From positions 12,284,822-12,348,821 of the forward strand of contig NC_049997.1 in NCBI RefSeq assembly GCF_000003815.2: a DNA stretch of 64,000 bases. Direction: 5' to 3'. The position numbers were made by a program, and so were the translations under genes. Positions 17,501 through 64,000 of this stretch are shown in pieces (the stretch's first letter is position 1; the number at the start of each line of letters is the position of its first letter). Below the pieces are notes generated by a model. That model was not told where the DNA came from. It did not search any database and saw only the letters and a list, made by a program, of their open reading frames with translations. This DNA is from Branchiostoma floridae. Its lineage: Eukaryota > Chordata > Leptocardii > Amphioxiformes > Branchiostomatidae.

Positions 17501-20500
17501 AACGTGCTTGAGGTGTGGCTTTCCCCATTTGCTTTCCTGCCAATCTGAGAGGGTGTCCTTTCCCAAAGCTAGTTATTTTCACCTCATTTTCACCTGGATG
17601 GAGTACCTTGCAAGAGTGCACAACATCTGGACCTACTTAGCCTCCATTGCAGTCTTTGAACGAGGCTGGTTTTTATTTGGGGTTGGGGGTGTGGGGGGCA
17701 TTGTTTAGCGATTTTCAATGTTAAGGTTGTCTTATGTCAGGAAAGGAAGTTTGCAGAGGAAGGGATTTTGCAGAGGAAGGCAGTTTGCTGTGGAAAGTAG
17801 TCTTGCCCTGTTTCCAAATGAAAAACAACCCTGTTTGAAGACTGCATGGGGGCTGGGACCTACTAGGGATTCAAACCCAGAGTCTGGGTTAACAGGCCCT
17901 AACATTGTGTTTACCTGTGAGAACTGGGCAAAGCTTGGGTCAGCGAACAGAGGCGCGTGTCCGAGTAGCTCGTGACAGACGTCCGGCTCGGGCGTGTACA
18001 GAGGCTTGGAGTGGTGGCGGATGTACTGGGTGGAGTGGAACACGCGGAACGCCAGTCCTGCCAGGAAGTCACGCGAGGACAGGAGACCGGCCACGGGCCG
18101 CAGGGTGAAACCTGTGCAATCTGTGGGGATGGAGATACCAAACATTAGATATTTGTAAAGACAGATATGGCCACACCTATTTAATTTGTTAATTCACGGA
18201 TTTTTTAAAGCAAAAATATTGCAAGCTGACATCATAAATGCAATGGGCAGGGAGGAAAACTTGAATATGACCATTTCCACTCAATAAACCTGAGTGCACC
18301 AAGGAATACATCTGGTCTTCTGGCTTTGTTTTCATGATCTTGTTCCAGTTAAGTATTTTTTCTTCGTTTTTAAAAAAAATCTTTGAACTAACATATCAAA
18401 TGGGTGTGATCTAATTATTCTATATGTATTCTCTGGAAGGGGTTGCTAAAAACTGGATGGACATCACTATTGGACTAAAAGACCAGATTTTGTACATTTA
18501 GTGTGTAAGGTTTTAAAATTAAAACTGACCTTTGAGAAAGTTGGAGACATCTTCCAGCTGTGGGATGTTGTCCTCTCTGTTGAGGAAAGACATTTTTCTG
18601 TCAGTGATCTACATGTGCATGTATTTGATATTGCATTTTCTTTCTGTTAATCTAGTGTGCATACTATCAACACTTAATGATAGACAACTACAGTTGTCAT
18701 TCCTATCATTTAGCTTATTCTGACTGTTTCCAAGGTACATGTATGATAATGACAATGATTGGCCAATTCTTCACCTATCGGGCAGCTCTGTTCTGTAGTG
18801 AACATTAATTTAATGAGTCCTAACCAATCAGGTAGCAGTAACTGGCTGATGGTGAAGTGTGATTGGCTGGCTCCTATCCAATCAGGTTGCCTGAACTCCA
18901 GACCTACCTGAATCCACAGTTCTCCATCAGTAGAGGGAAGACATAGTTGTGTTCACGGCAGGCGTGAGTTGGGTACAGCTTCCTCAACTCGGTGAAAATT
19001 TGCCGCCTGAAAAAAGAAAAAAAAAAAAACTTTAAAAGAAGTTCACTGATGAAATCATACAATCTAAAAGTCATTTAATTTATGGCAAAGAGATTTAAAC
19101 TTAATGTTTAGTATGTAGGAACTCTAAGGTGTCTAAGGTATCTCACCATGTGTTGATCTCTTGTTCAGTGTACTCCACTCTTGGAATGGGTTGGCCACTG
19201 TACAATAGACAAAAAGTACATAATGTTTGAAAACAAAGTTGACATAAGTTTGTGTCAACCAAATATCACACAAAATCCCACAGTCACAAAGCCATGAAAT
19301 CACTACAAGTCCAGTCAACAAGTCCAGTCATTTGAGAACGTAACTGTAACAATTCCCCTTGTGCTGAGTGTAGCATGCGCAATCTGTGAAAAGTCTTTGG
19401 ACCTCAGTGTATGACTTGATTAGGAATCAACCCTGAAAACTACTGGAAGCAAGCACTTTACCAACATTGCACTATTTGGATAAAAAGAAGGAATGATTCA
19501 TCTGACTCACTGTTTGTAGTTGAAAGCGATGTCTGCGAACTCCTTTCGGCGAGCTCTGTAGACGGCATCGGTGAAACCCTGAGAGAAAAACAGCAAAGGA
19601 GTAAAACTTCACTTTCTTCAAATCAAAATCAGATAAATTGTTACAGTCTTGTGTTGCAAAAAATCTTACAACTGATCATAGAAATATTTCAAATCTTGCT
19701 TTGGAATACATTTTATCTTGAATGCTAGTATTTTCTCTTGGGCATTGCAATTTTCTGTATTAGATATAGAGCATGAATGGGTCTTCACGCTTACTTTCAT
19801 CATAGCTATAGTTTAAACTCTATTGCTAGTCAAAGGTCATTGAACAATTACTAAAAACTAATGTCTGTGACACTATAAAAAATATGACCCTTATACAGCT
19901 AGTGCAATATATAACAGCTACTTTCTTGATTTTAGTCAGACAGCTACTTTCTTGATTTTAGTCAGACACTCAGCTCTTTAATATCAATCAGACACTCAGC
20001 TCTTTAATATTGATGAATAGTGATTGGTCAGATAAGACTAATGTACTTACAGGATGGTCAGAATCCAACTCTGATCCGTAACTCAGAATCTGGTTGGCGA
20101 ATCTGTCCAGATCCGAAATCTTTCGCGGGAACCAGGGAACTGGAACAACACAGCACACGGAACTCAATACACATGTACAAAAAAATAAACGAAAGGACTA
20201 GGTTAGAAATATTTGATTCCCCAAATAATGCTCCGTGTTTAAGGACCAAGTGTTTCAGGCAGACAGGAGACAGACTATTCTGCAGAGGAGAAAACCAGTA
20301 TAGAGTTAGGCCCCGTTCATGATGCAAAAAATCAAACGGTTCTATCGGTTAGGCCTGGAAATCCGACAGCAAACGACAGGAAACGGTTTGCATTTTGCGT
20401 TCACGATGCAAACTTGCAAACCGTTTCAGTTCCTTGAAAAGGCATGGTAATGCGACCTCTGACCCCTGAGGTTGTTGTGATCTTGCCCAAACTTGTACTT

Positions 20501-31387: not shown

Positions 31388-34175
31388 CCTGACACACCCT
31401 CACGATCTGGATTATCTTCTGTTGTTCGTCTCTCGTGAGCGTTAGACGTGCTTGCACACGACCGCGTAATACTCGAATATACACTGTTAAAATGTTATCG
31501 CTCCACAAGACCTTGGTACAGGGCAACTTATATGGAAAGTGGTCCAAGCTATCTATTACCAGACAGCTATTTCTGTATGTAAGGGGGGCACTTAGGGTTT
31601 TGTCAAACCTAGGACATACAACATATAACTTACACTATAATATCACTATATATTCAAAATTGACAATATCCCACGCTTTAGAAATATGGTATTACAGACA
31701 TAAAAGGAAGGTATGTATACATGCAAAAGACAAGAAAACATGTAATGTTGAAAATTTTTTTTTTAAAATTCTAATGGGCCATTTGGTTTTGCCTTGTAGA
31801 GGTCAAAATGTTAATGTCAGTCTCTTCAGTCAGAAATGCCAGGCCATGACATGGGGTACTAAGTCAGGTCATAGGAAAGATGTTAGAAGACTGCTCGGAA
31901 TACGGAATCAGGCATCTGGATTCATACCATAAAGACTACTTGTAACTCTGCTGTTTGCAAATTTTGTTTACCAAGAGGTTGGAGTTTTGAATCCTGGACA
32001 CTGAACGGTACATTACTGGTATATGGGTTGCATAGCATTATAGCTCTTTTGACACGACTTAAAGCTTATATAACTATAAGATTCAGTATTTGTGGGCAAG
32101 TCTCAAGTATATCAAAGTTCACATAAAACTTATTAATAAGAGTTAAGAGGTCATGTGTGCAAGAAAATACAAGGATGGAAAAAAAAGTAGTCTGAAAGCT
32201 TAACATCCAAGAGAAATTGAAAAATATACAATGCACAACTCCAACTTTTAGTAAAAGTAGTCAAAAGTTTTCTATCAACAGAAACTGAGAGAAGTTCTAG
32301 TTATGCAACTTTTTTATAGTTGATTATAATTCTAGTTTCATAAATCGTCAAATAAGCTTTTAGTAATTTTTTACTACTTGTCATGTTACTACTTACCTTC
32401 AGAGTTCAGAGCTCCCTTATGCTAATGAGGGAAAGTTATGCTAATGAGGAAAAAGTAGTCTGAATGTTTGGCCTCCAAATAAAACTAACAAGACTAGTCT
32501 GACAACTCTTTTGTGCAGCACACATATATAACTACTGATGTTATGAAACTACTAGTATTCAACTTTTACTGACCCCTTCCACAATTAAAGGGCTGTGAAT
32601 GCTGAGTGAATTTGACAGACCAGTCAATAAACTCTATAGATTAGATAAACGTTTGTCTGTTTTGTTTTCTTTTGAGTCATATTCTCGCATGATAATTTAA
32701 TCATGAAGTCATGGGTCAAACAAATCAAAATTCTGAATGCTGAACAGTCGTACAGCAAATACAGTCGCTTGAAAAGGAGGTCTTATATCTCAAGCTGGGA
32801 TGGGAGAGTTCAGTTCAGTGAATAATAGAAAAGAAATGCATAGCAGCTATCAAACTCAGGGCTCGAAATACTTTTTCTGCATACCTGCACCAGACAAATA
32901 TTACCTGCACCACTCTGAATTCAGGAAGTATGGATCATGTTTAGGAACCATTGCTATTTTTCTTTCATATTTTACAGGTGGTAACAGTCAATGCTGCTAA
33001 TAACAATCCATATACTCCTGATATGATATTTAATGTATAAAACCCAGTGCAGGTTAGGTGTAGGTAGACATCAGAAATACCTGCATAGCTCCAATTTTAC
33101 CTGCACTAACCTGCATATGCAGGTGGTATTTCGAGCCCTGAAACTGTAAAACTAGCTTTACCCAGTTTGAGAGTACATACAACATTTCATGTCAACTTAA
33201 GGAATAAGCTGTCTTAAGACATAGAGACAAATTTTCCTTCAGGCTACAAGAATTAGTTGCTATCTTGTCCAGTCTTAACCACCTGTCAGTGATAGTTTTT
33301 TTTACTAATCTGAGTGTTGCAATCCAATGAGCTGGAAAGAACACATGAGAGGGGATTATCCTCTATTGTTTGTACAAGTGATTTCATGGTTGGGATGATA
33401 GAAAATAGACCCTAGATCTTAGATTTAGATAAAGGATATTAGAAATGAAAAACGACAACAGATAAGAATTAAAAGAAAGAAACACAAGCAAAAACTTCCT
33501 TAGCTCTAAGATAACTTCACCAATATCAGTTAACTCTTAAAGAAGCCACTTTCACAGACAATCTGAAGAAAGGAATCTTTTCAGACACCATGTCCTTTTA
33601 AGAAGGCTAAATAGTACCATATGGGAGGTCGAATTTGGTGCCTCACTGGTCAAAAATTAACTTGAGGATTTTGTTTTTATGATTTGATGGCACAAGGAAA
33701 TTCCTCCAAGAAAATATCATATGAAGTTGACCCTAGCAATGCAAAAACAATCTATCATTGCAGGAAATTATACTCTACTTAATGTCCAACAAGAAGCCAC
33801 AAACCAAGAAAAACTGACAAAAGTACACGTTCTGTACTGTCACAAATTATTTTAGTCCAGCTCCAAGTTGTGACCTAACGTTTCGTCATTCACGGCAGTC
33901 TGAAACTATTCCTCAAGCGTCACTTAACTCTTAACTGATCCAATCACACCTCAAGACACACAAACATGTCTTGAAGTACTTTCTACAAGGTCCAATGATA
34001 GATAATAACACTGCACAAATATTCCGACAAGTCATATTTACGTACAACTTGCGACACACTTAATTTGTATCTACTGTCTAAACAACACGTTTTTAGTACA
34101 CCCAAATTCCGTGACAGTTGCATAAGAAGTTGTACTACATGACTGTAAGGAATATAGAGACAAGAAAGGACATAC
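31388..34175. other. Interval between proximal and distal PAH first exons
   Basis: It contains the hAT-like MITE at 32857. A plus-strand open frame of 165 codons at 31435-31932 has no recognised motif and lacks an initiator context. The remainder is AT-rich and unremarkable; the proximal PAH promoter should lie near 31388-31700, but no TATA box is obvious. Confidence 0.4.
32857..33140. mobile_element. hAT-like MITE, copy 2
   Basis: Same termini and interior order as 8127-8465 with small deletions. AAACT flanks both ends. It is inserted between the proximal and distal PAH first exons. Confidence 0.85.
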
Positions 34176-34262
34176 CTCGTCTCCATTGTCGAGTTTTGCC
34201 CGTTTTTCCGGCCAGTGTCCTGCGTCCATCTTGGATTGTTGTCCTTGACGTGTGTTTGTCAT
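34176..34262 (-). CDS. PAH: Candidate distal alternative first exon of PAH
   Basis: An ATG at 34262-34260 opens 29 codons containing KRAKLDNGDE and ends in phase 0 at a good donor (GAG|GTATGT). The next minus-strand coding exon that accepts phase 0 is PAH exon 2 (22764), which begins GQKTGSY. The join would give a PAH of about 464 aa that skips the proximal exon 31387-31331. The upstream MS4A-like gene ends at 36764 and cannot own this exon. The exon opens from a plain 5' region with an E-box-like TCATGTGAC at about 34259-34267. The alternative is the first exon of an unseen gene. Confidence 0.5.
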
Positions 34263-36621
34263 GTGACTTTCTGGTCGACTTAAATTGCGTAAATCATGTG
34301 ATCGAGGTGTCGTTTTACACTCTAGGGTTTAAAAATGATATAAATCCTTATGACAAGAGATTTGCTTTATCATAAGCGTTTCTGAGTGTCGACAAAATAT
34401 TAGTTTTTGATATAACATAAAACAGCTGTGGTTAATATAACGTAAGTTATTTGGGGGTCAAAAGGGGGCGTTTCCCCCAACCGACCAATGAGAGAAGCTT
34501 GTAATCTTTTGTGTTTGTTATGTGGACTATGAAATTGAAGGACGGTTTTGACATTGAATTTGCGACTAAATATAATTTTCAGACTTTGCTAATTGATCTA
34601 ACAGCTTAATATGGATCGATTGGACATTGGACTGTCTTGTATTTTTGTGACCTGATTGCTGAACGAAGTGTGATATTGTAGAAGACAAAAAGATATGAAT
34701 TTTCAAAGTTTCCAGACAAAAAACTGCAACTGTTTTGAGTTACAAAAATGAAGAAACGCTCTTAACACTAACAGTCGTCTGGTCTGCTGATGTAATACTA
34801 GTACTATTTCCGTATCCTCCCGGATATACACACTTGATAAGCAACAGTAGGTCTGTCAAACAATAAATAATGGTTTGAGCATTCTTCACATAGTTCATGA
34901 GGGTGCCTTTGGGCCATATCAATTAATTTTCTTGGTTCTTGCCCGTTGAAGAAAAAATGTACTCTCCAAGCAGAGGTTAGGCTCCGATTGTTTTTTTAGT
35001 CGTTTTTATCGGGCTTTCTATTTTGTCATTTTTCTTCAAGTACGCCAGGTTTTGACACAGCAAGATATTAAAAAAAAATAGAAAGCCCGATAAAAACGAC
35101 TAAAAACCATTAAAAAAACAGCCGGAGCCTACCCTCTGCTTGGAGTGAAGAAAAAATGAGCATGTATGAAATAAAAACGTTCAATGCACTGACAAGGCCA
35201 TGTTGACTTGGTTAAGTGGATAACATCCTCTGGGAACTAAGATAATGCTTGTGAACTCAAAGAAAAAAAAAATGACCCCAAAAAGTTGATTTCATCATGA
35301 ACTCATGCTTATGACAGGCAACTGGATATAATTAACAGTTGCTTCAGGAACTAAATGTATTTGGTGTATCTTAATACATGGATGTCTAAATTTTGACACC
35401 CCACTTTGTATGGTACAGAACAATAGACTCTTCATTGTTCTTTCACATATTACTGTTTGACCTTGGAATTGACTTTTGCATTCTATGACAATAGTATATG
35501 TTTTGCGATATTTACTGCAATCGACTCAGTACATTTATTTGCCCATTTTGCAGCTGCTTTGTCCGATTTACAGAATGGTTTATTTTTCATAAACTAAAAA
35601 TTAATGCCGAGGCATGGATGCAATCCACATGATCAAATCAACATGGCCAAAATGTGAGCACTTCGGGGTTGCCTCTTATCCTAAAATGTGTACAATTTTC
35701 CTTTTTTTCAAAACCAGCCTTTCCAAACATTTGGTAAGTGAGTCTACACACAAGTTCTCGATCTTAATCCTTTATTGCTTCAACTATAGATTGAACAACC
35801 ATTGTTAACTCTTCATGCACATTAAATCTTCATCATGTGCTGAAAACGTGCCTTTTGACATCAACCTCTGCTTAAGCTTATACAAGTTGTTACACATATA
35901 AACTGTTGCAAAGACATTGGCTGAAACAATGAACACTTACACTACAACATCTACTTTTAAATCAACATAATACCCTAATAATACTAGTATTTGTTGGCAA
36001 AATTTTACAAAGGAAAGTCACTCAATCATTGTTAAAAAACAAGTGTTAAAAATATCATGACATTACATAACAAAGGAAAAAATTGTTTGGGGCATTTACA
36101 AAATGTCCATATTCCAGTATAGTGTAAAACTGTGTGCTATGATCGTTGAGAAAGTGTAAGCGGGTTACCATATTGTATAACCCTTTTAGTGAGATACAAG
36201 AAATTGCTAATGCTAATACATATCCCTCCAAACTTTGCACACCAAACTTTCTAGACTGATAAATACATGAAGTCCCTACACCATATGCATGCACTGCTTT
36301 TGCACTCGGTTCTACATTTAGATAAAGAACACCAAAATCCCATTTTAAAGGCTACGAAATATGGTCTACACCATCAAGAATCTGATCTAAAAACAACTTA
36401 CAGACAGGTTTCAAACATACGTAATACAGGATCACCAAAAACTTGCGTACACTAGTACAGATGTATCTAAATGATGGGGGGAGTCATATTTCAGAATCCT
36501 GAACAGTTCTAGAATGAAGCTCTACAAATCAGTAATCTCAAACATTTTGTATATACAAGCCTCAAAAATTCTAATGAAAGGTTAAGTGAAATATCAACTT
36601 TTTACATCACAAATTTGATAC
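34263..36621. other. Intergenic interval, PAH to MS4A-like gene
   Basis: Apart from the family D element it is AT-rich sequence in which I see no exon or repeat. Confidence 0.5.
34960..35145. mobile_element. Fold-back element family D, copy 1, with 13-bp flanking repeat
   Basis: CTCCAAGCAGAGGTTAGGCT at the left pairs with AGCCTACCCTCTGCTTGGAG at the right, with inner pairing through ATCGGGCTTTCTATTTT. Flanks 34947-34959 and 35146-35158 are both TGAAGAAAAAATG, a likely target duplication of unusual length for a MITE. Confidence 0.75.
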
Positions 36622-36627
36622 TTTATT
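36622..36627 (-). terminator. Polyadenylation signal of the MS4A-like gene
   Basis: AATAAA (TTTATT on the plus strand) lies about 137 bp past the stop codon at 36764. Confidence 0.5.
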
Positions 36628-36763
36628 CAACACGTGTTACCTATTCTCCATAACAGCCAAATATATAGTGATGACTTGTATCATTAAGTGATTGATGCTA
36701 AACTAAGATGTCTTTAGGGGATGTGGTGGGTCTTGAAGCTGTTATCTTGTCATCTTGGCCTTG

Positions 36764-39700
36764 TCACTTTGTCTTGTCTCCTTCTTCCTCAACCTGGACA
36801 GCTTCTTGTCCACCTAAGACAAAATATAAACAAAAATTACTTTGATGTTCACAAAGACAATTTCAGTACTGTTTTGAAATCAAATTAATAACACTGTCTT
36901 TAAACACTGTTTGGGCCACCACATTTTTTTACTTCTTAAACTAAAACACATACATGTAACGCTGATCTGAAAATCAAAAACACATTTTCTGAACTGAAAC
37001 ATATTAACTGAAAACAGAGATGCCAGGAAACAGAATTATAGAAAACAAGAATTATAAGAGTGTATAACTTAAGGTTATCTAAAAGAACAGTGAACTTACA
37101 GTTTTATTTCTCATTCTAAAACTTGGAACAGCATCATACAAAACATGAATTGCACAGTAACACTGTACAATGTACACATAAACCCTGTGCATCCGAAAAT
37201 GAACTGGTTACTTTTGCAAAGGCATAATGTGTGAGTGTATAACTTAAGCGTATCTAAAAGAACAGTGACATAAGTTTTATTTTTCATTCTAAAACTTGGA
37301 ACGGTGGCTAAGGGTGTACTTTGCCAGCTCAATTACAATATCATTTATGTGCAGGTTTAACTCCCGTACGTAAACAACTGTAACTCCAAAAGAAAACAGA
37401 GTAACAAGCATGAACCATTCTGTGAGAACAAATGAAAGTTAGACAACAGTTCACCTTCTCAGCTAGTGGACACGTACTTACTTGACTGACTTAGACACGA
37501 GTCTTGCCTAGCAATGTCGAGCACAAGACAGAAGCACAAAGGAAAAGACTTGAGTTACTGGCATGCATTAATTCTAATCATGCAAGTATGAATTTGAAAA
37601 GTTGACCCTTTTGTCACTAGCATGAAGATCAGGAATTTAAAACATACATTCGGTACTTCAGACAACCATTTGTGATAAATTTCTCCTTAGACACAAGTCA
37701 TGCAATTTTAAGTTCTCTAAAGACTTATAAACTAAAGGCCATCTCAAGAAAGATATCAGAAAAAGTTAGACTCAAAGACTAGATTATTGTTTTCAGTTGT
37801 GCAGACTTAAGACCGTAAGTATTTGCCTTTCCAATTACTATATACTATAGACTTACATGTATATGCATATAGGTTTAGTGCGAAAGTTCTAACATTCTTA
37901 AAAGAAAACAGACTGTAGCAATTGTGACTGCACTAATTCTAAATTCTGTCAAGGGCCTCCCAGCAAAGTTTTGATCCAGGATAAAATTCACAACAGGATT
38001 TGTTTTTAAACCAGAAAGAAGAAAAGTTTGTTAGCAGTTTCAATGAGCTGGCAAAACAATCCAACATAGTTTTCTCTTTTTACACAATGATCTTTTTATT
38101 GACGTTTTGGTGAATACTCTGATGTCCTCAGTAGGGCAATGTGAACTATCTCCACGTCATAATGTGATGTAACTGTAAACTTTCTCCTTGTATTGTAAGG
38201 ACACAATTGTCATTACAAGTTATATGTCACAATACAACAACAAAAAAGTTTGACATGATGAAGGCAGAAGAGCAGCTGCTGAAAGATAAAATTAATAGTA
38301 GTTTCCGTACAAAGTTGTCATAATTGGTTGACATGCTTACACACGGTGGGGGTATACCGCCGTTATTTCCTTGGCTGATTACAAGACGGGGACACACCAG
38401 GTCTACCGTCTGAGTGAACGGTGTAAATTACAGTATTGCGGATACAAGACAGAGGTTCGCCAGGCCTTCATTGTGTGATTTGTACAAAAGATTATGATTG
38501 AATTGGAAATTATTTCTTTGTCAAATGAAACAAGTGAAAACCTACTTGCTGGCAGCATGGTGGCCTGTTCATCCTTGTACAGCACTGGTCCAGGCTCGCG
38601 CTGCAACAACAAACACAAGCAATCAGACATGGCAAACTCCAAACACTCAAACAAACGCTGAAGATTTATACTGTAGTATCTATACATCAGTTGCTATGTA
38701 ACCATACAGTGGGCCACTTTGAGGACAACATATTTCACTCTACGGTACATTTATATGGGAATTAAACAACCCCTGATGATTGCTTTTCTGCATACCGATG
38801 GTTTATAAATCTTTAGCATTCTGTGACTGAGCACTGGAACCAGCTATTTGAGGGTTGGTAGTTTGACCTTGATCTTAAGGTTGAAGGGGAGCCACGATTT
38901 CACACCGGAGGAAGGAAGGCTACTTAGTTCAAAAGATAAAGTTAAGATTAGAATGTAAACAGCACATTGACATATGACATGCTTAGAAATGTGTAAAGCT
39001 GATATAAAAGATGGAAGTTTCACAACAGATTGTATGCAGAGTTTTAATCTATTGTATTGTCTAGTGCAATTTTACCCAATTTCCACTGAGGCAGAGACCA
39101 AAACTATCATAGGCAGTTTCGATGATTTTCATTCATAGAGTATTTGGTTGTTTTTCACATCATACAACTACATCATGGGTCATATTCACTTCATATATGT
39201 AGGTTGTACAGATCTGATACAGTTTTGCTAGCTCCAGCCAGTATAAGGAACCTTATCAGTGAAGCCCTCACATGTCCCTTCTGTAGTCCAAGTGAGCAAG
39301 AAAAAAAGACATGGAAAAACAACACAGAGCAGCTCAGTATAGAAGCAAGTGTGTAAGAAGGAAAAACCCTTCAGCAGTCACAATTACCTTGCTACTTGGT
39401 TTAGCTACTTGATTTTTTCTTAGAATGAACACTTCATATACCACTCTGAGCTTGACTCATAAAAAATTTGGTACGGAAAGTGAGAGCAAAACTTATTGAA
39501 ATATCTCTAGATGTAAGCTATTTTCAAAAACCAGTGAACCAGTAAAAAAATTTGGTGTGACCTTATGCCCGAATGGACATGCTGAAAAAGTTACCACTAA
39601 TAACGACTTTTGGAGGCTGTCTCAAATGTATTTATTACATGCTTCTTTATAAGGAAATTTGACATCTATTATATTGTGTTTATTCTATCACAGGAGCTCT

Positions 39701-42700
39701 AATGTCTTATATTCAAAGCAGAGCAGAGCAACTCATAAGCTCTTCAAAAAGTCAGACACAAAGAGCAGTGATCTTTATTCCTCGTGTACAGGTTGAGTAT
39801 AAGTGCAAGCGTACACTGCAATCTTGTACAACACTGTTTTCAAGGTTGCTCCAGGGAATGCACTGAGACAACAATACAGAATTTCTAAACCAACTATATA
39901 ATTGGACAATACATATACATGTAGTTTGTTGTGATTATGACAATCGTTGGACACAGGAAAAGAAATTGTGATAAGTGTGTAGTGCAGAAGATATAATGAA
40001 CAATTTTCTGTATTACATTACCTTGTAGAAAAAATGTTGAGAGGTAAAAAAAAGTATGATATGGATTGGAAGTGTAGATAGTGTTGGTGAAAGAATTCCA
40101 CTTGAATTTTTACATCTTTGTAAGTTAAACGCAACTATCAATATATCTTGTTACAGTTCATTAAAACATGCAATCAAAACTTTTTTAGTATCTAAAACAC
40201 ACACAACTCTACTGGAGCCCCTTCTTCAGGGGCCTTCTACTAATCTTAATGTATTACTCACAATTCAATTCACTCAACTAAAGGATGATAGTGTCCAGGG
40301 CTTACCGTGTACATATCTACTTCCCTACAATACAAAGTAGTTTCTTCTATCACATTCATTCTTCCTTTTTATTTTTAACCAAGCTGAGCTAGTTACTGTG
40401 CCTCATTCTGTGAAGAGATAATAGCATAACAAATGTGAAGACTGGTTATATATTGAAGATAACCTCTATTGTCAAGCTTGCACTGTCCTGAGTTTTTTCT
40501 ACAGGTTATAAGGTTATACATCAAATATCTTCAATATACATATATATGTCTATCTTGTAGTGGTTGGCAGATGCAATCTTTCAAGATATGCTGCTTAAAC
40601 TGTGTATGTGCAGGGAGTTATACTGTGGGTAAATCACACTATGTCAAAGGCCCGAAGACAATTGCAAAACACATTTGGACATGTATGAAGCATAGTCTAA
40701 ACACAATCTACTTCGAAACCTTCACCTTTGATATACTAGGCACAATGCATCTCCCACGCGTAGATTAAATAATGAACTGGCTGGTAGTATGAGTACTAAC
40801 ACTAAGTCTTGTGCTTGCTTATACAATGTACCTTTAAAATCCTTAGTGCCAATCATTACATAGAATGAGTTGATGCCAAACTAAAGATGTTTTGAGTACG
40901 ACAATTTTGCGAGAGGTTGGTTGAAAAGGGTTTGAAGTACTCTCAGACAAATGCCTCGCACGTGTCGTCAAAAGAGGTATGACAAGAAGGAACTTCTAGT
41001 ACCCCAAGTATCAGACTCGTCATCGAATCATCACCGAGCACTTGAATGGACCACAGTTTGTATATGGGGGAGGGAATAACTTGTATACCTTTCTTAGGCA
41101 AATTACGGTTTCTACAGAATCTTTTCAGCATTTCACAAAAGCAAGACTTGTTTTGGAAAAGCCAAACAGTAAATAGAATGTGTTTCTTTTTCCAATGTGA
41201 AAATCCCTTTTTCATTATTTCAGACAACACTACTACATTTGTAATATCATTCACACAATGTCAATACAGTAAGTTGAACTTAACTCCTAAAAGGCTCGTA
41301 GTTAACCATCGACATTTCTTCTTGATTTCAGTTTCTGAAAGAAGCTTTGCATGAAACAGGACAAATAAAAACTTCTACGGGAATCATGAACTAAGAACGA
41401 AGCTCTAGTCACAGTATAGTGGCTTGGTCATCTTCTATCATCGTCTTCTTGTAGTTGTAGCTCTTCAATACTGATTTCAGTTATGCAGTGTCTTTCTTAC
41501 GACATTCTTACCCTAGAACAGTACCTTGTGCCTACAAGACTACTAAATCTAAGGTAAGAGTGCTGAAGAGCCCACTGCTTAACTGAAAGTTTTTTTGATG
41601 CATCTCTGACATGGCCTTACTTAGGCCCCTGTAATGACAAACGAAAGGGGAATCATTAGTAAAACAAAGGTTGCATTGAAAAGGTTGCAAAAAGTGCGTT
41701 AATGATGCAGGTGTAAGACTTGACATTCGCCTACTGTTAAAACCACAAGTTTTTGCCGATAAATTATTACTACTACATGTAGCTAGTACAACAGTATAGC
41801 TATACAGTTGTCTTATCTTGTATTCATTGAATTTTTTTCCAATGAAGTTAACATTCCAAACACAACATTATCTGTCACTAAAAAAATACAATATATGTTG
41901 CCTTGTGTTTCTTTGTGCTCAATGTATAAATCAGCTTGAAGTTAAATAAACATGGCAACAGATGTTGCAAATAGAGTGAAATGAATCTGTTACATGAACT
42001 AAATAGAAGTACAGTAGGTCAACTACAATTCTACATTTAGAAACTTTGAAACATTTAGAAGAGTCCAGTTTGTGTAAGATAATCTAAATGTTAGTCTGCT
42101 GTATATATAACAATCTATAGACCACGAAAGAAAATAGCAGGGAAAAAAGGGAATCCATGCTGTTGAGTTATGCATAGACTTATATAGTCAGAAAGAAAGA
42201 AAGAGCAAAAGATAGAAACAAAGGATAAAAACAACTTACTTTCTTCTTGTCCAAGAAATGCTGATGATGTACTTCAAAACAACTTTTTTCCAGCTCATGC
42301 ACAGTTCCATGACACAATACAGCACAAAATACAACGGAGAAAAATATGGCTGCCCGTGCAGGTACGGCAAAAATAAACAAACATCTTGGAACAAAACGTT
42401 ATGCCGCATGCACTGAATGCAATACCGGAGTACAAGTAATTATATTTCAACAGTAACAGCACATTACTGTGAAACTTTACTCAATTGTTAAAGGGGGGTG
42501 GCAACTTAAAAGGGTAAAACAAGTCTTATGTTTCCATGCAAATAGTACTCACTCAGTTAAGTCTCTCTCTAAGTCTCATATTATTATGGCCATTCTACTT
42601 GTTTCAAGCTGATTCAAGACATTTTTTTAAAAAGCAGCTACACCTTGTATAATTCAACTTGTTGCAGCCAAAAGCCAGTATCAGAAAACACTATCCTTGT

Positions 42701-45700
42701 CAGTATTCTCAAAGCAATATGCCATCATATAATATATTGTACCTATCATGTTACATATTGTACCTATAAAAATTCTGGTAATTTTGTGATTTCTATTTAT
42801 CTGCTATCATGATAGCTGTATTTCTAACGACTAAAACAAGTCTGCCTCAAGAATGCCATCAGTTTTTGATTATTTAACAATCGGAAAAGTTTTAAAATGC
42901 ACTTTGCACATAATGTGTGACATAGGCTTTGGATCTTTTCAACTTGATAAGGATAAGAGGACTGACCGAAAATTTGTTGGTAAGTGTTTTTGTGTACTGA
43001 TATAAAATTCAAAATTATAAAATATTAAGTTTGAAAGATATGCACCTTTGTGAAGTATCCCACCATGGACTCCAGACACAGGATACAGCAGCACACGGCA
43101 GTCACCATCTCAAAGAAGGCAAAAATGCAGGAGGGGATCCACACGGCCCAGGTCTTACCCTATCATGGAAATACCAAACAACATGATTACAACTTGAAAG
43201 ACAAAAGTACTTTTGCAACCATTCAACACTCAATATCCCATACTGACTGCTGTAATTGTGTGTATGCCAAAATGTTTGCAGTGGTTTTATGTTCCTAGTT
43301 TTCCTGTGAAATCTTCACTGCGACCTTAAACTAGTGTTTCCAATGCTGAACAACTGTTATAAGCACTTTTGTGAACTTAAAGCCACCGATAACACTCCTT
43401 TATTCCATTAAGTTAGGACATTTACAGTAAAATATTCTTACAAAACCTAACTAAAATGTTAACTGAAACTGCATACAAACAAAAGGACAAATCTTAAGCA
43501 TCTACTTTCATGCTACTGAAACATATATCACTACATACAACTCAGTTTGAAATATTGGTAGTAAGTTACTATTTTAAACGTTGTTTTAAAACAGAGAAAA
43601 ATGTTTTTGTTACCTGGCAGTGTAAGTAAATTAGAATGAACATTAGAAAAACTTACCTCATTTCAAACAGTTTATCACAATACTTGTAGGCAACACAAAC
43701 ATGCTTTGGGAAAACATGTAAGCAGTACACTTTGTTAAAAGGTAACATTCATGACCCTCAAAACAAAGGGTGGTTGAAGTTCCTGAAGTTTGTGACTTTC
43801 TTCCCAAACAGGGTCCTACATGTATGTTTCTTAAACGTGAACTTCTGTTAGAGAACTCAGAGAATTGAACTTGAGGAACCGCACCAGCAAACAGCTGGTG
43901 AAACTGGAGGAACACGTGGCAAAAAAACCTCAGGTAATCATGTGATAAACATCATTATTTGTGGACAAACTATTACACTAAAGAAACTTTTTTTTCTTAA
44001 AATCATGCTTAACTTTTGTCTAAAGTTGAGCAACATATATATTCCGTAAAGATTGGAGCATTCAAAAGTTGCTTCTTAGTTTAAAACCTTTTGAATCAAA
44101 TCATTTTGTATTTACCATTTTCAAAATAAGTCGGCACATGTTTTGAACTGTTCATGTACAGGGTCAAAGGTGAAGACTCCTAACGAGCAACAAGTTCTTG
44201 TCTAGATCATGTCCAGACATGCTGTTTGTCTCATGGGCCGTGAACTTTGACATATAACCCACAATAGGTCACACTGTACATGCATAATTCAAATTGTGTA
44301 CCAACTAACTCTTTTTGTTTTACACATTTTTCTCCATAATGATACCACTATATTGTCCACAAATAACATGATATTACCACACTGGTACCTTAAGTGGAAA
44401 ATCATCTCCGGTGATGTATCCAGGGGTGATGACCAGGACAGTTGTCAGGTTCAGGAGGATACTGAAGGCATTAGCATACAGGGATGCTGGGATCTAAAGA
44501 AGTTGTATCTACATGAACATCATTGCACTTTGCCCTACACTCTAGATATATTCTGGGCGAATCCTCCTTAGGAATATTGAGAACAACCTATATAGAGAGG
44601 GACAGAAGGCATTTCTTTCTAATCTAAACCTTATGTAAGATTGGAGAGATGCAGAAAATAAAATCAGGGTAGAGGAAACAGTTTCCCTATAGTCATGTCA
44701 TTCAACTTTCTGTGATATTTTTGTTGTCTAACGCTGCATTTTCGCTAAACAAAGGCAAATATTTTCAACAGCATTTGCTAGCCTTGGATTTGTCTCCTCA
44801 AGAGCCTAAAGGTTAAGAATGCCCGAAGAAGCTTCTCCCTATCCTGTCTTCTCTAGGTCTTTGCTGATGCCTAATTCTGGAAAACAGTGCAAGTGTTTAC
44901 TTCTTGCTATATGAGTCCAATGTTCTTGTCTTCTTTCTGATCCTCCATACTCAGCTACACCTGTAAAAGTGATCTCAATCCAGTTAATCACACTGAAGAG
45001 ACAATCTTCTACTGGTCATGACAGATGCTATATACAGCATTTATAGTTTCATTGAACTGGGGAAATTCTTCAGTAAGCTTTTTTGATGAGTACAATGAAC
45101 CATGAGTTCAAGTCTAGTTCCTAAAAATGGTAACCCTTTTCAGTGGCGTACATGTCGAGTGCGAGGACAGGATTTGAACTCCTAACCTCTTGGTACAGAG
45201 TTGCTAATCACTGGAGTACGGGCGCTACCTAAATGTCACATAGAAGATTATGTGACATTCCAGCATATGAAAATATCTGGAGTGAATGGGGAGGGGGGCT
45301 GAAAACACTTCAACTTCAACCATCCTTTTGTTTTGAGGGGCGACCATGTGTTTGGAATACCTCAGGGTGAGGCAGGCCAACTTGTGTTCCGGGCACAATC
45401 AGGATCAGGCAGGCAAGGTTGATGAGAATACTGATGATGGAAGCAGCCAGAAATCCAACAACCTACGGATCAAACAGTGATTTAAATATCAAGTCAATAA
45501 CAAAAAAAACAAGTGTTCTTCTTCTTCTTTTTCTTGCATGTGCCGGCCTCTGTACTTTGTGACCTGAGATCCATGAAAAGTACAAGACAGTGTATGAGTT
45601 TTATGGAAGAAATGACAGCTTTTCCATGCCCACCATGCATCAGAGTCTACTTGTTTCCATGTGTATCACAGTGCTTGAAATAAATGCAACACCCATCACT

Positions 45701-47014
45701 TCTATATGGATTATGCAGTCATCATAGACTGGACAAAGGAAAATTCAACATTTTCTCACAATTATTTTTATAAAAATTGATAAAGTAACAAAGATTTTAA
45801 CAAAGAAATTTTGTTAGTTAACTTCCCTGTCCTCTTAAAGCCAAAATTATCAGATCTTCATGTATCGAAATATTACCATCTTAGAGTCAAACTTTAAACT
45901 TGCATGTGTTAGACAAATGTGCATTCATATGAGAAGCCATACCAAATGAGTGAAGAAAACTATTTTAGGGTTTAAATGTTTCTTACCATGCTGCCCTTGC
46001 TGTCAGTCATCTTGCCACTTACGAATCCAAGAATTCCAGCAACAATCACCTGGACAGTGCCACAAAAAATTAACACAACAGTCAGTGTCACTCACATCTT
46101 GCATCTTACTACATTATAACATATGAACTATGTTTTGCAGCAAAACATATGCTATTCTTTCATACATACATACTAATTGTACATGTATAAAATATAATGT
46201 CACTTGCTTTTACACTGTATCCAATTGTAAGTCATAATTGTTTGAGTAAATGCAAATTTGACTCTATTGAAGTGTTCATGGCTTGTTCTGCAATATCAGA
46301 TTCAAGGTATTTCTTCACAGTGTCTTTATTGAGTATCCATTCTGGACAAACCCACATTGATGCCATAGCTTTGCTGGAATTATGATTGTGGTTTTGCATG
46401 AATAATTCCAGAGTTTCAAGCCAGTATTTCAAGTCAGTAGAGTCCCAGGGTCCTCCCCAAAGGATGGAATAATGGCAGCCCTCCACTATACTCCTAGCCC
46501 AGCTCCACTATACTACTTTTCAAATTAAGTGTGTTTCTTCCCTATTTTCTCGGTTAGCTTTGCTAAAATCAATGAAAATTCACAGATTTTTGTGCCAAGT
46601 GGCATCACTTTTCCAGTGGGCATTGTCTGCAAAAACTTGTGAATGGGCTATGAATGATCAAAACAACAGTCGTTTTGCCACTTCACAACAATGGAATCAC
46701 AATAATATATTATACTTGTAGTATTTGACACCCATTTTCATGAAAGAGCAGCACGTTGGTTTGGGTTATTTTCGCCAGCCCCTCCACTATACTAAAAAAT
46801 TCTGGGGAGAACCCTGGTAGACATATCAAAATCCAACCTCACACTATTTTTATCGAACACTCACAATGCTGCCAGACACGATGGCGAACCAGTTGCAGTT
46901 GAAGGCGGAGTTGGCGCCCACGACCACAGAGACGACCCCAAGGATCACGCTGATTATGCCGAACCCGACCATGGCCGCTCCCAGGCCCTTAGCGATGCCT
47001 TTACTATAGCTCAT
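36764..47014 (-). CDS. Four-transmembrane MS4A/CD20-like membrane protein
   Basis: Exons in gene order: 47014-46865, 46049-45987, 45462-45361 or 44493-44389, 43159-43046, a 21-bp microexon 42260-42240, 38600-38546, 36813-36764. Phases are consistent, giving about 184 aa with the microexon and the first TM3 exon. TM1 is about 12-34 (GFGIISVILGVVSVVVGA). TM2 is about 41-62 (WFAIVSGSI continuing into VIVAGILGF). TM3 is about 72-95. TM4 is about 108-135, with IFAFFEMVTAVCCCILCL. The cytoplasmic tail is acidic and ends EEEGDKTK. The WFAIVSGSI TM2 and FAFFE TM4 patterns resemble MS4A (CD20-like) proteins, which are plasma-membrane tetraspan proteins. That family call is by eye, and another small four-TM family is possible. 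The gene structure is firmer than the name. Confidence 0.72.
37056..37304 (+). repeat. Local duplication of about 76 bp
   Basis: GAGTGTATAACTTAAG.GTATCTAAAAGAACAGTGA and ATTCTAAAACTTGGAAC occur at 37056-37130 and again at 37228-37304. It lies in the last MS4A-like intron. Confidence 0.8.
42240..42260 (-). CDS. 21-bp microexon (HFLDKKK) of the MS4A-like gene
   Basis: It is bounded by ATCATCAG and GTAAGTTG, is exactly seven codons and is in phase 0. It would insert a basic heptapeptide just after TM4, between the exons ending YFTK and starting REPGP. It could be optional, since skipping it also keeps the frame. Confidence 0.45.
42936..43022 (+). repeat. Partial copy of the 6840-7166 fold-back arm
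   Basis: CAACTTGATAAGGATAAGAG followed by TGTTGGTAAGTG matches the right arm of the 6.9 kb element with scattered changes. It lies in an intron just next to exon 43046-43159. Confidence 0.6.
44389..44493 (-). CDS. Alternative TM3 exon of the MS4A-like gene (copy 2)
   Basis: This 105-bp phase 0-0 exon follows a TTTAG acceptor and ends CTTAAG|GTACCA. It encodes 35 aa including FSILLNLTTVLVITPGY. It aligns with the 102-bp exon 45462-45361 (ISILINLACLILIVPGT) over the membrane segment and the following PG turn. Including both would give five membrane segments, so mutually exclusive use is the simplest reading. Confidence 0.6.
45150..45235 (-). repeat. tRNA-like (SINE-type) fragment
   Basis: The minus strand reads CCAGTGATTAGCAACTC (A-box-like), a CTNTACCAAGAGG anticodon-arm-like stretch, and GTTAGGAGTTCAAATCC (B box and T-loop). 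The 5' and 3' acceptor strands do not pair, so a functional tRNA is unlikely; a tRNA-derived SINE head is likely. Confidence 0.55.
46445..46817. mobile_element. MITE with CCAGGGTYCTCCCCA ends
   Basis: CCAGGGTCCTCCCCA at the left and TGGGGAGAACCCTGG at the right are inverted. Inside, CCTCCACTATACT occurs several times. CAGGG ends suggest the hAT group. It lies in the first coding intron of the MS4A-like gene. No clear target duplication is seen. Confidence 0.6.
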
Positions 47015-47104
47015 CTTGGCTGGGGTTGAAAAAAAAACAACGTAAGATAAAGAATTAATTTTAGTAGTATGCACACTTTATCTCATCAAATGCAGGACTG
47101 TAAA

Positions 47105-47329
47105 AGCCTTCTCACATTAGTTAGGACGCATGTGCGGCGACAGGAATTCTAGGTAATATGTCAAAGGGTAAGGCACACAAAAAGAAAACAAAACCCGTCT
47201 GGATATTGTTATGCAAATAGAAACAATGGTGAAGACAAGGACTGTTTACTTTTTGTGTGCCTTACTCTTTGATATATTACCTAGAATTCCTGTCGCCGCA
47301 CATGCATCCTAACTAATGCGAGGAGGCTT
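47105..47329. mobile_element. Fold-back MITE with arms of about 80 bp
   Basis: 47105-47184 and 47249-47329 are inverted copies (GCGGCGACAGGAATTCTAGG / CCTAGAATTCCTGTCGCCGC). It lies between the leader exon and first coding exon of the MS4A-like gene. Confidence 0.8.
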
Positions 47330-48450
47330 ATAGCAGGGTTGGCATCTGCAAGAATTCCCCCGGTCATAATTAACACATATACGATTGTATGGGTGGTTAG
47401 AGGGTACATAAAAGAGGAAGAATAATCTTGAAGATTATTTTGTCTTATTTTTTTTAATGTTGTCTAAACAACATCTACTAAAATGTTCACCCTCACTTGT
47501 GGAAATATCTTAACTGCATGCGTTCATTTGTAACAAAATAATAGATGTAAGGATGATTGAAATCAATGTTGAACAATAAACAGGTAATTAAAAAATCAAA
47601 AGCAATCGATTTCTTTCGTAGTGAACTTCAAAATTATCCATCTGCCCCTCCCCTTTGCTTGGTTATACTACTACATTTGTATTTCTGTTTGCATTCCAAT
47701 TTTTAGAAAGTAATACATTAAAAATCATTTTCGAAATCATACATACAACATACAAGTGCCAGCGATATACTAAAACAACGTTGCGTTGTCAAAATAATCC
47801 AAATTGACCTTATTAAAACCTCCTGTCTGCGCAAGGTCATCACATGCAAATTAGGGCATGGTTGACAGAAATGGAAATTTCTTTCCACGACAGCTGCAAA
47901 AATATACCAAAAGAGGAACGTTACGACCAATTTTGGTTTCTTTTTGGATGTGTGAATAGATATAGGGGCTATTGATGGAGAAATTTGGTGATTTGGGGGT
48001 GGTTTTACTGGCGAAACGGGTGCAGAGAGGCCAGGATGATGAGATCACGCCCTCTTTGGAACATGCACGCCGCCATTTTGTTGGGAGGGCGGATCAGACG
48101 ACTTTGTATGACCTTTCGGATAAACCCGCCTCAAAATCACCTATTGCTCTAAAAACCCGAGCACATCGCTCCATTTACACAAACCTAACAGCTTCTGAGG
48201 AAGGCAGAGGATTGAAAATATCGTAGGAAGAAGCTGGGAAGCCTGCAATGTTGGCCTAAATCTACAGACCAAAAAGGGCTTCTTCATATGCAAATGAGGC
48301 ACGGAACCGGCTTGACCGAAGCATGCATGTAAATCGGTAAATATAAGCATTTTTCTTGTTTCCAAAACCACTAAATGATGTTGAAGAGATACTTTGGTGT
48401 TGTCCAGTGCTTATCAAACGGTTGATGTAACTGAAATATTGCTACATACC

Positions 48451-50931: not shown

Positions 50932-53900
50932 CTATACGTCATTGTTCCCATTAAAACACCGCCTCGTAAGTACGTTCCATATCTCCCTGTACCCTTTTCT
51001 GATTTTCGTGTTCATGACGCCATAGATTATGGGGTTCGCGGCAGCATTCCCTGCCCACAAAAGCAACCCTATCAGCAACGCTTCCTCTGAAACACGGTCG
51101 TCTATAATGACCATCACCATCGCTGGTACGTTACAAACAACACAGCACACAAAAATCGACATCAGCATCTTCAACATTTCTCTCTCTGCGCGGGACCTTC
51201 TAAAGTCGAACTGCCTTCCGACATCACGTATGGATGCTAGGCTTGTGGTGGCGCTACGATTAACACTCAACGTTAACAGTGTTCTGGGACTTCTACAGCG
51301 GTCTGATGGAGGTTGTAACGTTGTCGTGTCGCGATCGCTTACCGAAGAGATGTTGTCTTCTGTGATTCTGAAATCCCGATCTTCTGATGATCTGCTTTCT
51401 AAACTAAGAGAGACCGTAAGGCGAGGGTTGGTTTTCTTTTGAGTCAGGATCCCCGCCTTTGATCCACAAGTCTTATCGCTGTGGATTGTAGCCACGTCGA
51501 TGGATTCAAGTGGTAACTGCCCAGATTCTGTTGTCCAATCAGAGAGGAGTAAGTTATTTCTCTTCGGTTTACGTGTTGCTGTGTCATCTGTAGTAGTATG
51601 TAATGTGTTTGGATCGCTACTGAAGCTGGTCGAAGGTCTGTTTACTGACTCATGATCAGGATAGAATATTTTTGGTACTTGCATTCCTACTTGCTTCTTC
51701 TTGCATACAATACGAACTTCTTTATTTTGGGTATTGTCTTTTGGGGCTATTGATATCGACCCAGGCAGACAAATCTCTTGGTCTTCTACTGTGAAGTCAT
51801 TTGTCTTTGTCGTAAGTTCTGATCTAGTATTGCCAGCGGTTTCCCCGGTTTCCCGAGTATCAATAACATTGTTTGTATGCTCTGCATGGGACATGCACGA
51901 AGCCGATGCAGAATTTTGTCGCGAGTTGACCAGAATTGTATTTGTGCTCCTCCTCGTGGCCATGTACATGGCGACGTAGAAGACCATCGCTACGACGCAG
52001 GGGAGAATTAGTACCCCCACTGCCAAAGTGGTCTTCACCTGGGTGTTGATCATCCGTACAGCCGCGCACCGCTTCAGCTTTTGGCTGTAGGAAACGTTGT
52101 CCACAGGATGTACATGTGGCGCGATGAACGCTAACACGGGAACCAACCAAGCCAGGGCAACCTCAGCACACACTGCCTTGGTGGATGTCATGGCGGGAAA
52201 GCGGTGGAAGTGGATAACCCGGAAATACCTGTACACGGCGATACATCCCATGTGGCACAGCGACACGCCCCACAGTACCGGAGCGGTGTACGACTGGAGG
52301 ACACACAGGCCCCAGGGTAGGCGGAACTCGGGGTTTAACAGCACGTTGACCCACATTGGAGGGTGGAGGGCGGTGAAGAGGATGTCCGAGACACTGAGGC
52401 TCGCCAAGGGGGCGTTCTCGCGTTTCCGTAGACTCGGACACAGCGTTAGCGCCAGAATGACCATCAGATTCCCGATGATACTCTGAGCAATAAAAACTGC
52501 AGGGCAGAAACCAGAATTAGAATAAAAGAATAGCATGCACTGGTACGCCCAAGGATAGGCAGGAGGCCTAAGTAAGTCAAAGTTAAAGTCAAACAGTAAG
52601 CATACAGTAGCAGGAGGTGGAAACCTCGGCGGAAAAGGAAAACTCCCCAAATCCCAAATTGTATAGGCCGCAGGTTAGGCTCTGTATAGTAGTATGGCAC
52701 CTAGTCTCCTTAGGCTCTGACTATTTTCGACGTTTTTTAGGCGATTTCATCGGGCTATCTATTTTGCCTAGGCCGCGAGATATCAAGAAAATGATGCAAA
52801 ATACAAAGCCCGATTAAAAAGGCCTAAAAAACTGTCAAAAAGCAGTCGGAGCCTAACCTCTCCTTGGAGAGTATACTGCACTGCGCCTACCTCAGAATTT
52901 CCCCCTCCCTCTTTACAGCAGCGTTTTTGTTAGATAACAGGGATCTGTCTGCTGGTTGATAGGCTCTCGTTGTGCTTTGTTCCATGATAGAGTTCAAATA
53001 AGGATTGCCGTTGGTTGATATGACAAAGACGGTTATTACTGGCATTTCTTTCAAACATGGGACTACTGATAGTGCAATACAGGTATATAAATGGCTCACG
53101 GTAGAATTTGAAAGCTTGCCCCTGCCAGAGCCAATGTAGAAACGTCGCCAATACATTACACGTAACATTTATGACACTAACGAAGCAATCAGAAAAAAAG
53201 GTATAGACAGAAAAAAGGATGAATTCCCATTTAATACCATAAAAATCAAGACTGGATTAGATAGTATGATAATTGTGGGCACAGCTTGAATTATTGTCAG
53301 CCCTGTAAAACATCCAAAAGTTTTAGAATAAGACAAACAAGTAAAACAAATCTCCCGTGCGATACAACTCATATCTTTTTTTTATTCAAACATTTAAAAA
53401 ATAACACAATATGACAAAGAGGTAGCGAACTCAAGTACAAGACTTATCTTTACGCTATCCCTTACATAAAACAAAGCGTACATTTTTTACAAAGAGAAAT
53501 CAAGTAAAAATGAAAAGCAAAGGAAAATCACGTCTGACAGAAAATAATACATTGTACATAATATAACAAGAAAAGATAAACGCTAGTCCAGTTTCCCACC
53601 CAATCTTGAAATAATTGGACACATAACAAAAACTCATATTTGTAGGGTCACCAAAGACTGTAGCACTAGCACTCTAGCTAGGTCACAAACGGGTGGAAAC
53701 AGAGAGTATAATTAATAAGATATCAAATATAGGAGATTTTGATGATCATGAACTTACTGATCATGATGACAACGACGACATACTGGAGTACTGGCGAGAT
53801 GGTCATGTTGGTAACGATAACTGGCTGCAACTCACAGGATAAAAAAATCTGCTATCTTGCCGAGCAAGGCTGCTCAGGCAACTGTCCGTATCATATGCAA

Positions 53901-55627: not shown

Positions 55628-62478
<6,851 letters not shown>

Positions 62479-62830: not shown

Positions 62831-63414
62831 GCTAAACAAGGAAAGAAATTGGTGTGGTGTTTTTCAGTCCTCTAGACTGTCCGACATACTTTCATTCAAG
62901 TCCCCCTGCCTGGTAGAGCCCCCCTCAACGCCCATGCTGGGCTAACTTTGGGCACTATCCTTTTAAACAGCTCAATAGGCCGTACCTGGTTGCTAAACAA
63001 GAAAAGAAATTGGTATTTTTTGAGTCTTCCAGACTGTCTGACATACTTTCATCCGAGTCCGAATGGTATGTCAAGTAAGAGAGTTTTTGGCAACAGTGTC
63101 TTTAGGTACTGTCCTTTCAGAAAACCCATAAGACATGAACTACTTGCTAAACAAGAAAAGAAATTAGTGTGATCATTTCTTTTTAGTCCTATACACTATC
63201 CGACATACTTTCATCCAAGTCCCCCTGGTACAGCCCTTCACCACCCATGCTGGGGTACCTTTGGGTACTGTCCTTTTAAACATTAGGCCATTAGGCAGTA
63301 CCCACTGGCTAAACAAGGAAAGGAAATGGTGTGGTCTTTTTTAGTCTTCCAGACTGTTCGACATTCTTTCATTCTTTCTGTCATGTAGGAGAGTTTTTGA
63401 CTATTGTCCTTTAA
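62831..63414 (+). repeat. Tandem repeat, about 160-bp unit, four copies
   Basis: Unit starts marked by GCTAAACAAGRAAAGRAAWT fall at 62831, 62992, 63146 and 63308. Each unit also carries AGACTGTYCGACATACTTTC and ACTGTCCTTTTAAAC-type boxes. The fourth unit breaks at its CCTTTAA box, where the H4 fragment begins. Confidence 0.85.

Positions 63415-64000
<586 letters not shown>

Follow-up and report, generated by a model that had tools for sequence, protein, structure and literature searches.

A lancelet CD20-like gene with two homologous third-helix exons and an intronic inverted repeat that may help to choose between them

A CD20-like gene on the minus strand of the lancelet genome carries two adjacent, homologous exons for its third transmembrane (TM) segment and the accompanying loop, and these exons are probably spliced in a mutually exclusive manner. 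More tentatively, a single long-range intronic duplex could serve this chordate gene as a one-sided switch between the two versions of helix and loop. The window, that is, the whole stretch of 64,000 nucleotides analyzed here, is G000:C19:12284822-12348821, and the genome searches cover 513,431,437 bases in 431 contigs. The core of the gene consists of exons E1, E2, E3a or E3b, and E4, joined at phase 0, with two further exons proposed for the cytoplasmic tail.

46865..47014, minus strand: E1, with the start codon, TM1 and the first part of TM2; 50 codons, ending in phase 0; sequence read directly
45987..46049, minus strand: E2, a TM2 mini-exon of 21 codons, phase 0-0, ending in methionine; sequence read directly
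45361..45462, minus strand: E3a, the first exon for TM3 and loop; 34 codons, 102 nt, phase 0-0
44389..44493, minus strand: E3b, the second exon for TM3 and loop; 35 codons, 105 nt, phase 0-0
43046..43159, minus strand: E4, the TM4 exon; 38 codons, starting in phase 0
38546..38600, minus strand: E5 (a guess), a cytoplasmic tail exon of 18 codons plus 1 nt, with a pyrimidine-rich acceptor and the donor GTAGGT
36764..36813, minus strand: E6 (a guess), the last coding exon, which completes the codon split after E5 and adds 15 codons and a stop

E1 ends at the donor GTGAGT, and the intron that follows it lies at a position common to the genes of a CD20-like cluster on contig C2. The end of E4 is uncertain since a donor at 43064 outscores the one at 43046 (2.4 versus 1.6 with a generic consensus). 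The tail model is weak because both of its exons were picked by eye and rank poorly by third-position GC, E5 being 8th of 25 candidates and E6 13th of the 15 listed. Beyond E6, an AATAAA stands at 36627; the interval 34000-46100 has 12 such hexamers in all. With the guessed tail, the predicted products are 177 residues long in the E3a form and 178 in the E3b form. The E3b-E4 intron has a further AATAAA on the minus strand, at 43404, and polyadenylation at this point would cut transcripts short ahead of TM4. Upstream of the gene, 47101-47332 holds a hairpin with 90-nt arms that are 92% complementary and 52 nt apart. It stops 87 nt short of the E1 start codon and resembles a small inverted-repeat element lying in the 5' UTR or promoter.

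An earlier note on this DNA had placed two in-frame TM3 exons here and described their translations as similar, and it holds on both counts. Each exon is open, in frame, phase 0-0 and flanked by AG and GT, with E3a standing after ...CCGTAG and before GTATTC and E3b after ...TTTAG and before GTACCA. Alignment of the translations gives a BLOSUM62 local score of 52, with 12 of 29 aligned residues identical. That score was reached by none of 20000 full shuffles, by one of 20000 segment shuffles and by five of 20000 shuffles that kept the hydrophobic/polar pattern. The window contains 839 open phase-0 stretches of 30-40 codons between AG and GT; of these, E3b and its variant longer by 6 nt match E3a best, E3a itself aside (52; next 39), and tblastn of E3a against the window also returns E3b as the best non-self match (E 0.002; next 0.16). 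At the DNA level the identity is 40/87, six of the 12 identical residues use the same codon, and the 300-nt flanks of the two exons are no more alike than shuffles. The duplication looks old given this low DNA identity and the lack of likeness in the flanks.

The genome searches also bear on whether E3b might be part of another gene, broken or overlapping, a reading for which nothing speaks beyond distance and which is highly improbable. A search of the whole genome with the E3a-form protein, in which only the best candidates were scored, gave six matches at E <= 10: this gene's own exons account for four, and the other two are weak, on contigs C16 (E 0.024) and C8 (E 0.106). No close paralogue of the gene was found among those scored candidates, and E3b has a single match genome-wide at E <= 0.001.

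The affiliation of the gene was approached through the CD20 profile (PF04103). The match is weak and falls in the region from E1 to E3. With neither E3 exon the predicted protein scores 12.5 bits, with E3a 19.8 and with E3b 19.0, so that each exon brings a near-equal gain and both look like working third helices. Neither form reaches the gathering cut-off of 27.9 bits. The description of the protein as MS4A-like in the earlier note is strengthened by the exon plan, which is common with amphioxus CD20-like genes, although the score is below the Pfam cut-off. A search of the PDB by sequence gave no matches and one of NCBIfam, a library for prokaryotes, gave no families.

At E <= 1, the CD20 profile finds ten places in the genome, three of them over the cut-off: one on C16, one on C3 and eight on C2, where they form a cluster of CD20-like genes (C2:8252496-8327040). 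Nine stretches spanning the C2 genes and the C3 gene were examined. All eight C2 genes have a TM1 exon ending at the same point in TM2, a 19-codon stretch ending in M and one TM3 exon, while a TM4 exon passes the filter in seven. The scripts that listed these exons took phase 0-0 stretches only, which makes phase 0 a condition of the listing under which each C2 gene was recovered. The gene studied here has a plan of the C2 type, with a 21-codon mini-exon ending in methionine and two TM3 exons. A second TM3 exon was seen in none of the eight C2 genes under the filter, which a poor second TM3 exon could escape; the same filter, applied to 9.9 kb of this gene, returned only the stretches of E1, E3a, E3b and E4 and missed E2 and E5. 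In the C3 gene, too, inspection of that list by eye gives one TM3-like exon. In the g8 gene of C2, an extra hydrophobic open stretch (8252330-8252181) precedes the TM3 exon; it resembles 8322321-8322181, between two other genes, rather than the TM3 exon.

On C16, the relative is an uninterrupted open reading frame of 318 aa on the minus strand (1045-2001 of the stretch examined) with a CD20 domain of 32.4 bits, above the Pfam cut-off. It can be aligned with the protein of this gene from TM1 to TM4, all in one open frame, and is probably an intron-poor CD20-like gene. The two share an acidic residue and cysteines in TM4. With the C2 genes, the protein differs in its TM3-TM4 loop, which is short and without the cysteines of the C2 loops. 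The phase-0 exon plan, shared with the amphioxus CD20-like genes, speaks for placing the gene among them. Four hydropathy segments and a weak TM1-TM3 profile match are further features in common with the CD20/MS4A family; its sub-threshold Pfam score and additional TM3 exon set it apart from the family. These relatives bear on the question of MS4A genes in lancelets as well. PMC2826416 reports possible lancelet relatives and concludes that invertebrates are without MS4A genes, with convergence as a possible source of similar ones, a conclusion with which the C16 frame over the cut-off and the exon plan on C2 contrast.

The relatives also help to place the duplication. In one scoring mode, E3a and E3b score 48 globally and 52 locally against each other, while against the TM3 segments of nine relatives the scores reach at most 28 globally and 38 locally (both maxima being E3a with C16). 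As to which copy is ancestral, most scores of E3a and E3b against the single TM3 exons of the nine relatives are inside the shuffle range. Since the two exons are closer to each other than to the TM3 of relatives, the duplication probably arose within the lineage of this gene.

The next consideration is how the two exons are used. They have the same phase and similar lengths, and each is splice-compatible in frame with the same neighbors, as had been claimed for the passage into the next exon. Hydropathy predicts four membrane segments with E3a or E3b alone, three with neither and five with both, which bears out the further claim that using both would break a four-TM topology. PMC5740500 argues likewise, holding that two exons encoding TM helices are very unlikely to be cassette exons. 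Because the exons are more alike than chance allows, match in phase, length and order, and fit this topology, we infer that both exons are used, in two isoforms and likely to the exclusion of each other. Speaking against exclusivity, both exons are multiples of three, and the frame would permit double inclusion or skipping. Steric hindrance offers no explanation for exclusivity because the intron between E3a and E3b, at 867 nt, is too long.

If both exons were instead cassettes, included or skipped, the number of helices would vary from three to five among the products, with the C-terminus flipped. Every combination keeps the frame and the intron between the exons is of ordinary length, as cassettes would require; however, the end of TM4 and the tail would move to the other side of the membrane, the C2 relatives have one TM3 exon in eight of eight cases under the filter, and the argument of PMC5740500 applies to paired TM exons of this kind. 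Cassette use is quite improbable. Somewhat less so, but still unlikely, is that only one copy is used and the other is an old duplicate, decaying or cryptic, that is rarely or never spliced. Among five donors scored with generic consensus weights, which are not trained on lancelet introns and also underlie the exon listing for the relatives, those of E3a (-0.2) and E3b (-0.22) are the weakest (others 1.56, 2.0 and 4.23), and the TM3 helix of E3b is less hydrophobic than that of E3a (1.68 versus 2.79). Weak donors on both exons also fit regulated exons. At 40/87 DNA identity, moreover, an unused copy should show stops or lost splice sites, whereas frame, AG/GT and helix are intact in both, and the two score alike on the CD20 profile. 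Mutually exclusive use of E3a and E3b is the favored reading.

A repeat scan of 42900-47100 revealed a near-perfect inverted repeat, absent from the earlier note, whose arms lie in the introns on either side of E3b.

45312..45339, minus strand: intronic arm and candidate selector, starting 21 nt after the E3a donor
43755..43781, minus strand: intronic arm and candidate docking site, downstream of E3b and 595 nt short of the E4 acceptor

The complementary arms exist as such; as RNA, they are predicted to form a 26-pair helix interrupted by one bulge and one mismatch, at -39.4 kcal/mol for 32-nt pieces and -43.8 with flanks, a pairing that would loop out E3b. Six pairs can be made among the four introns, and only that of the E3a-E3b intron with the E3b-E4 intron beats its 20 dinucleotide shuffles (-41.5 against a shuffle mean of -27.5, sd 1.8, minimum -31.8). 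The second-best duplex of the same intron pair, 44800-44761 with 43908-43869, is at the shuffle minimum (-31.9), and the best other partner of the docking arm gives -23.3. In the C2 relatives for which a TM4 exon was seen, seven in number, the stretches flanking the single TM3 exon are predicted to pair at -33.1 in the gene with long introns and at between -14.5 and -21.0 in the remaining six. The upstream stretch in this comparison included the mini-exon, and the introns were mostly shorter, which lowers the chance of a strong duplex.

It is possible, and put forward tentatively, that this duplex is a switch between E3a and E3b. The arm downstream of the E3a donor would pair with the arm before E4 and loop out E3b. 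The effective E3a-E4 distance would shrink to about 0.6 kb, against about 2.2 kb without the duplex, and E3a would then be chosen. With the duplex absent or opened, E3b would be used. The switch is proposed as one-sided because only one pairing was found: among the other pairs of the four introns, no competing pairing that loops out E3a stands above shuffles. For the same reason, the duplex would explain only half of the exclusivity. When the arms are unpaired, the joining of E3a to E3b would have to be prevented by a protein factor or by competition for the E4 acceptor.

An equally tentative reading assigns the repeat another role, such as the production of a circular RNA from E3b, or regards it as a local inverted duplication that arose by chance, in which case RNA-binding proteins would set the exon choice; this would be compatible with exclusive splicing. 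Reverse-complement matches flank circularized exons, and the arms flank E3b in this way. Nor are strong duplexes very rare. Among 135 same-size segment pairs, overlapping and mostly from this window, seven reach -38 kcal/mol; one is this repeat, leaving six of the other 134 with similar strength, and some of these look like repeat elements. The window holds 37 inverted pairs of at least 20 nt within 3 kb, and this one is outside the 25 longest. Against another role, E3b is only 105 nt long, one arm is 21 nt from the E3a donor and the docking arm is not a genome-wide repeat.

Whether the repeat stems from a transposon was looked into for the 43755-43781 arm. In 513 Mb the 18-nt core of this arm is matched exactly once, with two copies at one mismatch and 22 at two (reversed control, 73), so the docking arm is not an obvious transposon. 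Both one-mismatch copies are on C7 (333906-333923 and 335898-335915), about 2 kb apart.

Returning to the proposed switch, its layout may be compared with known systems. In PMC6071210, which cites Dscam, Mhc and 14-3-3zeta, the examples of exclusive exons under RNA-duplex control are mainly from insects, and a docking site downstream of the exon cluster is one of the docker/selector layouts described there. Human sets of mutually exclusive tandem duplicated exons are described in PMC5740500 and PMC9741552. Like the tandem exons of Dscam, Mhc and 14-3-3zeta, E3a and E3b are adjacent and homologous, of near-equal length and in the same phase. Like docker/selector systems, the gene has complementary intronic sequences with a downstream docking site, and elements able to loop out a cluster exon are present at the level of complementarity. 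Unlike those three genes and the human sets, it has two exons only, and one pairing was found instead of competing pairings.

The variants of mammalian MS4A genes offer a second comparison. There, alternative splicing changes membrane segments by skipping exons or parts of them and is not known to swap homologous helix exons, as is predicted here. The literature matches listed, judged by titles and abstract openings, include no case of mutually exclusive tandem exons in the CD20/MS4A family. Within the bounds of those matches, the present gene would be the first reported instance of helix-swap splicing in the CD20/MS4A family, and would be a docker/selector switch in a lancelet. If so, membrane proteins of two different shapes would come from one gene, with no gene duplication involved. 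The loop of CD20 carries antibody epitopes. Should both isoforms be made, the loop corresponding to it would be switchable by splicing. The kind of splicing is already known, and the CD20-like family and the simple layout with one duplex give the case moderate interest. Having two exons and one duplex in an invertebrate chordate, it would be a simple place to test control by RNA duplexes.

Other genes are present in the same window. At 63415-63690 on the plus strand is a frame that by eye resembles histone H4 in its motif; an overlapping minus-strand frame (63286-63582) matches no Pfam family. On the minus strand, 17735-18193 is an exon of a biopterin-dependent aromatic amino acid hydroxylase (PF00351, 148.7 bits), and 50935-52674 is a single open frame of 580 aa with a rhodopsin-family GPCR domain (PF00001, 81.7 bits). 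An exon of the carboxylesterase family lies on the plus strand at 56945-57316 (PF00135, 50.1 bits).
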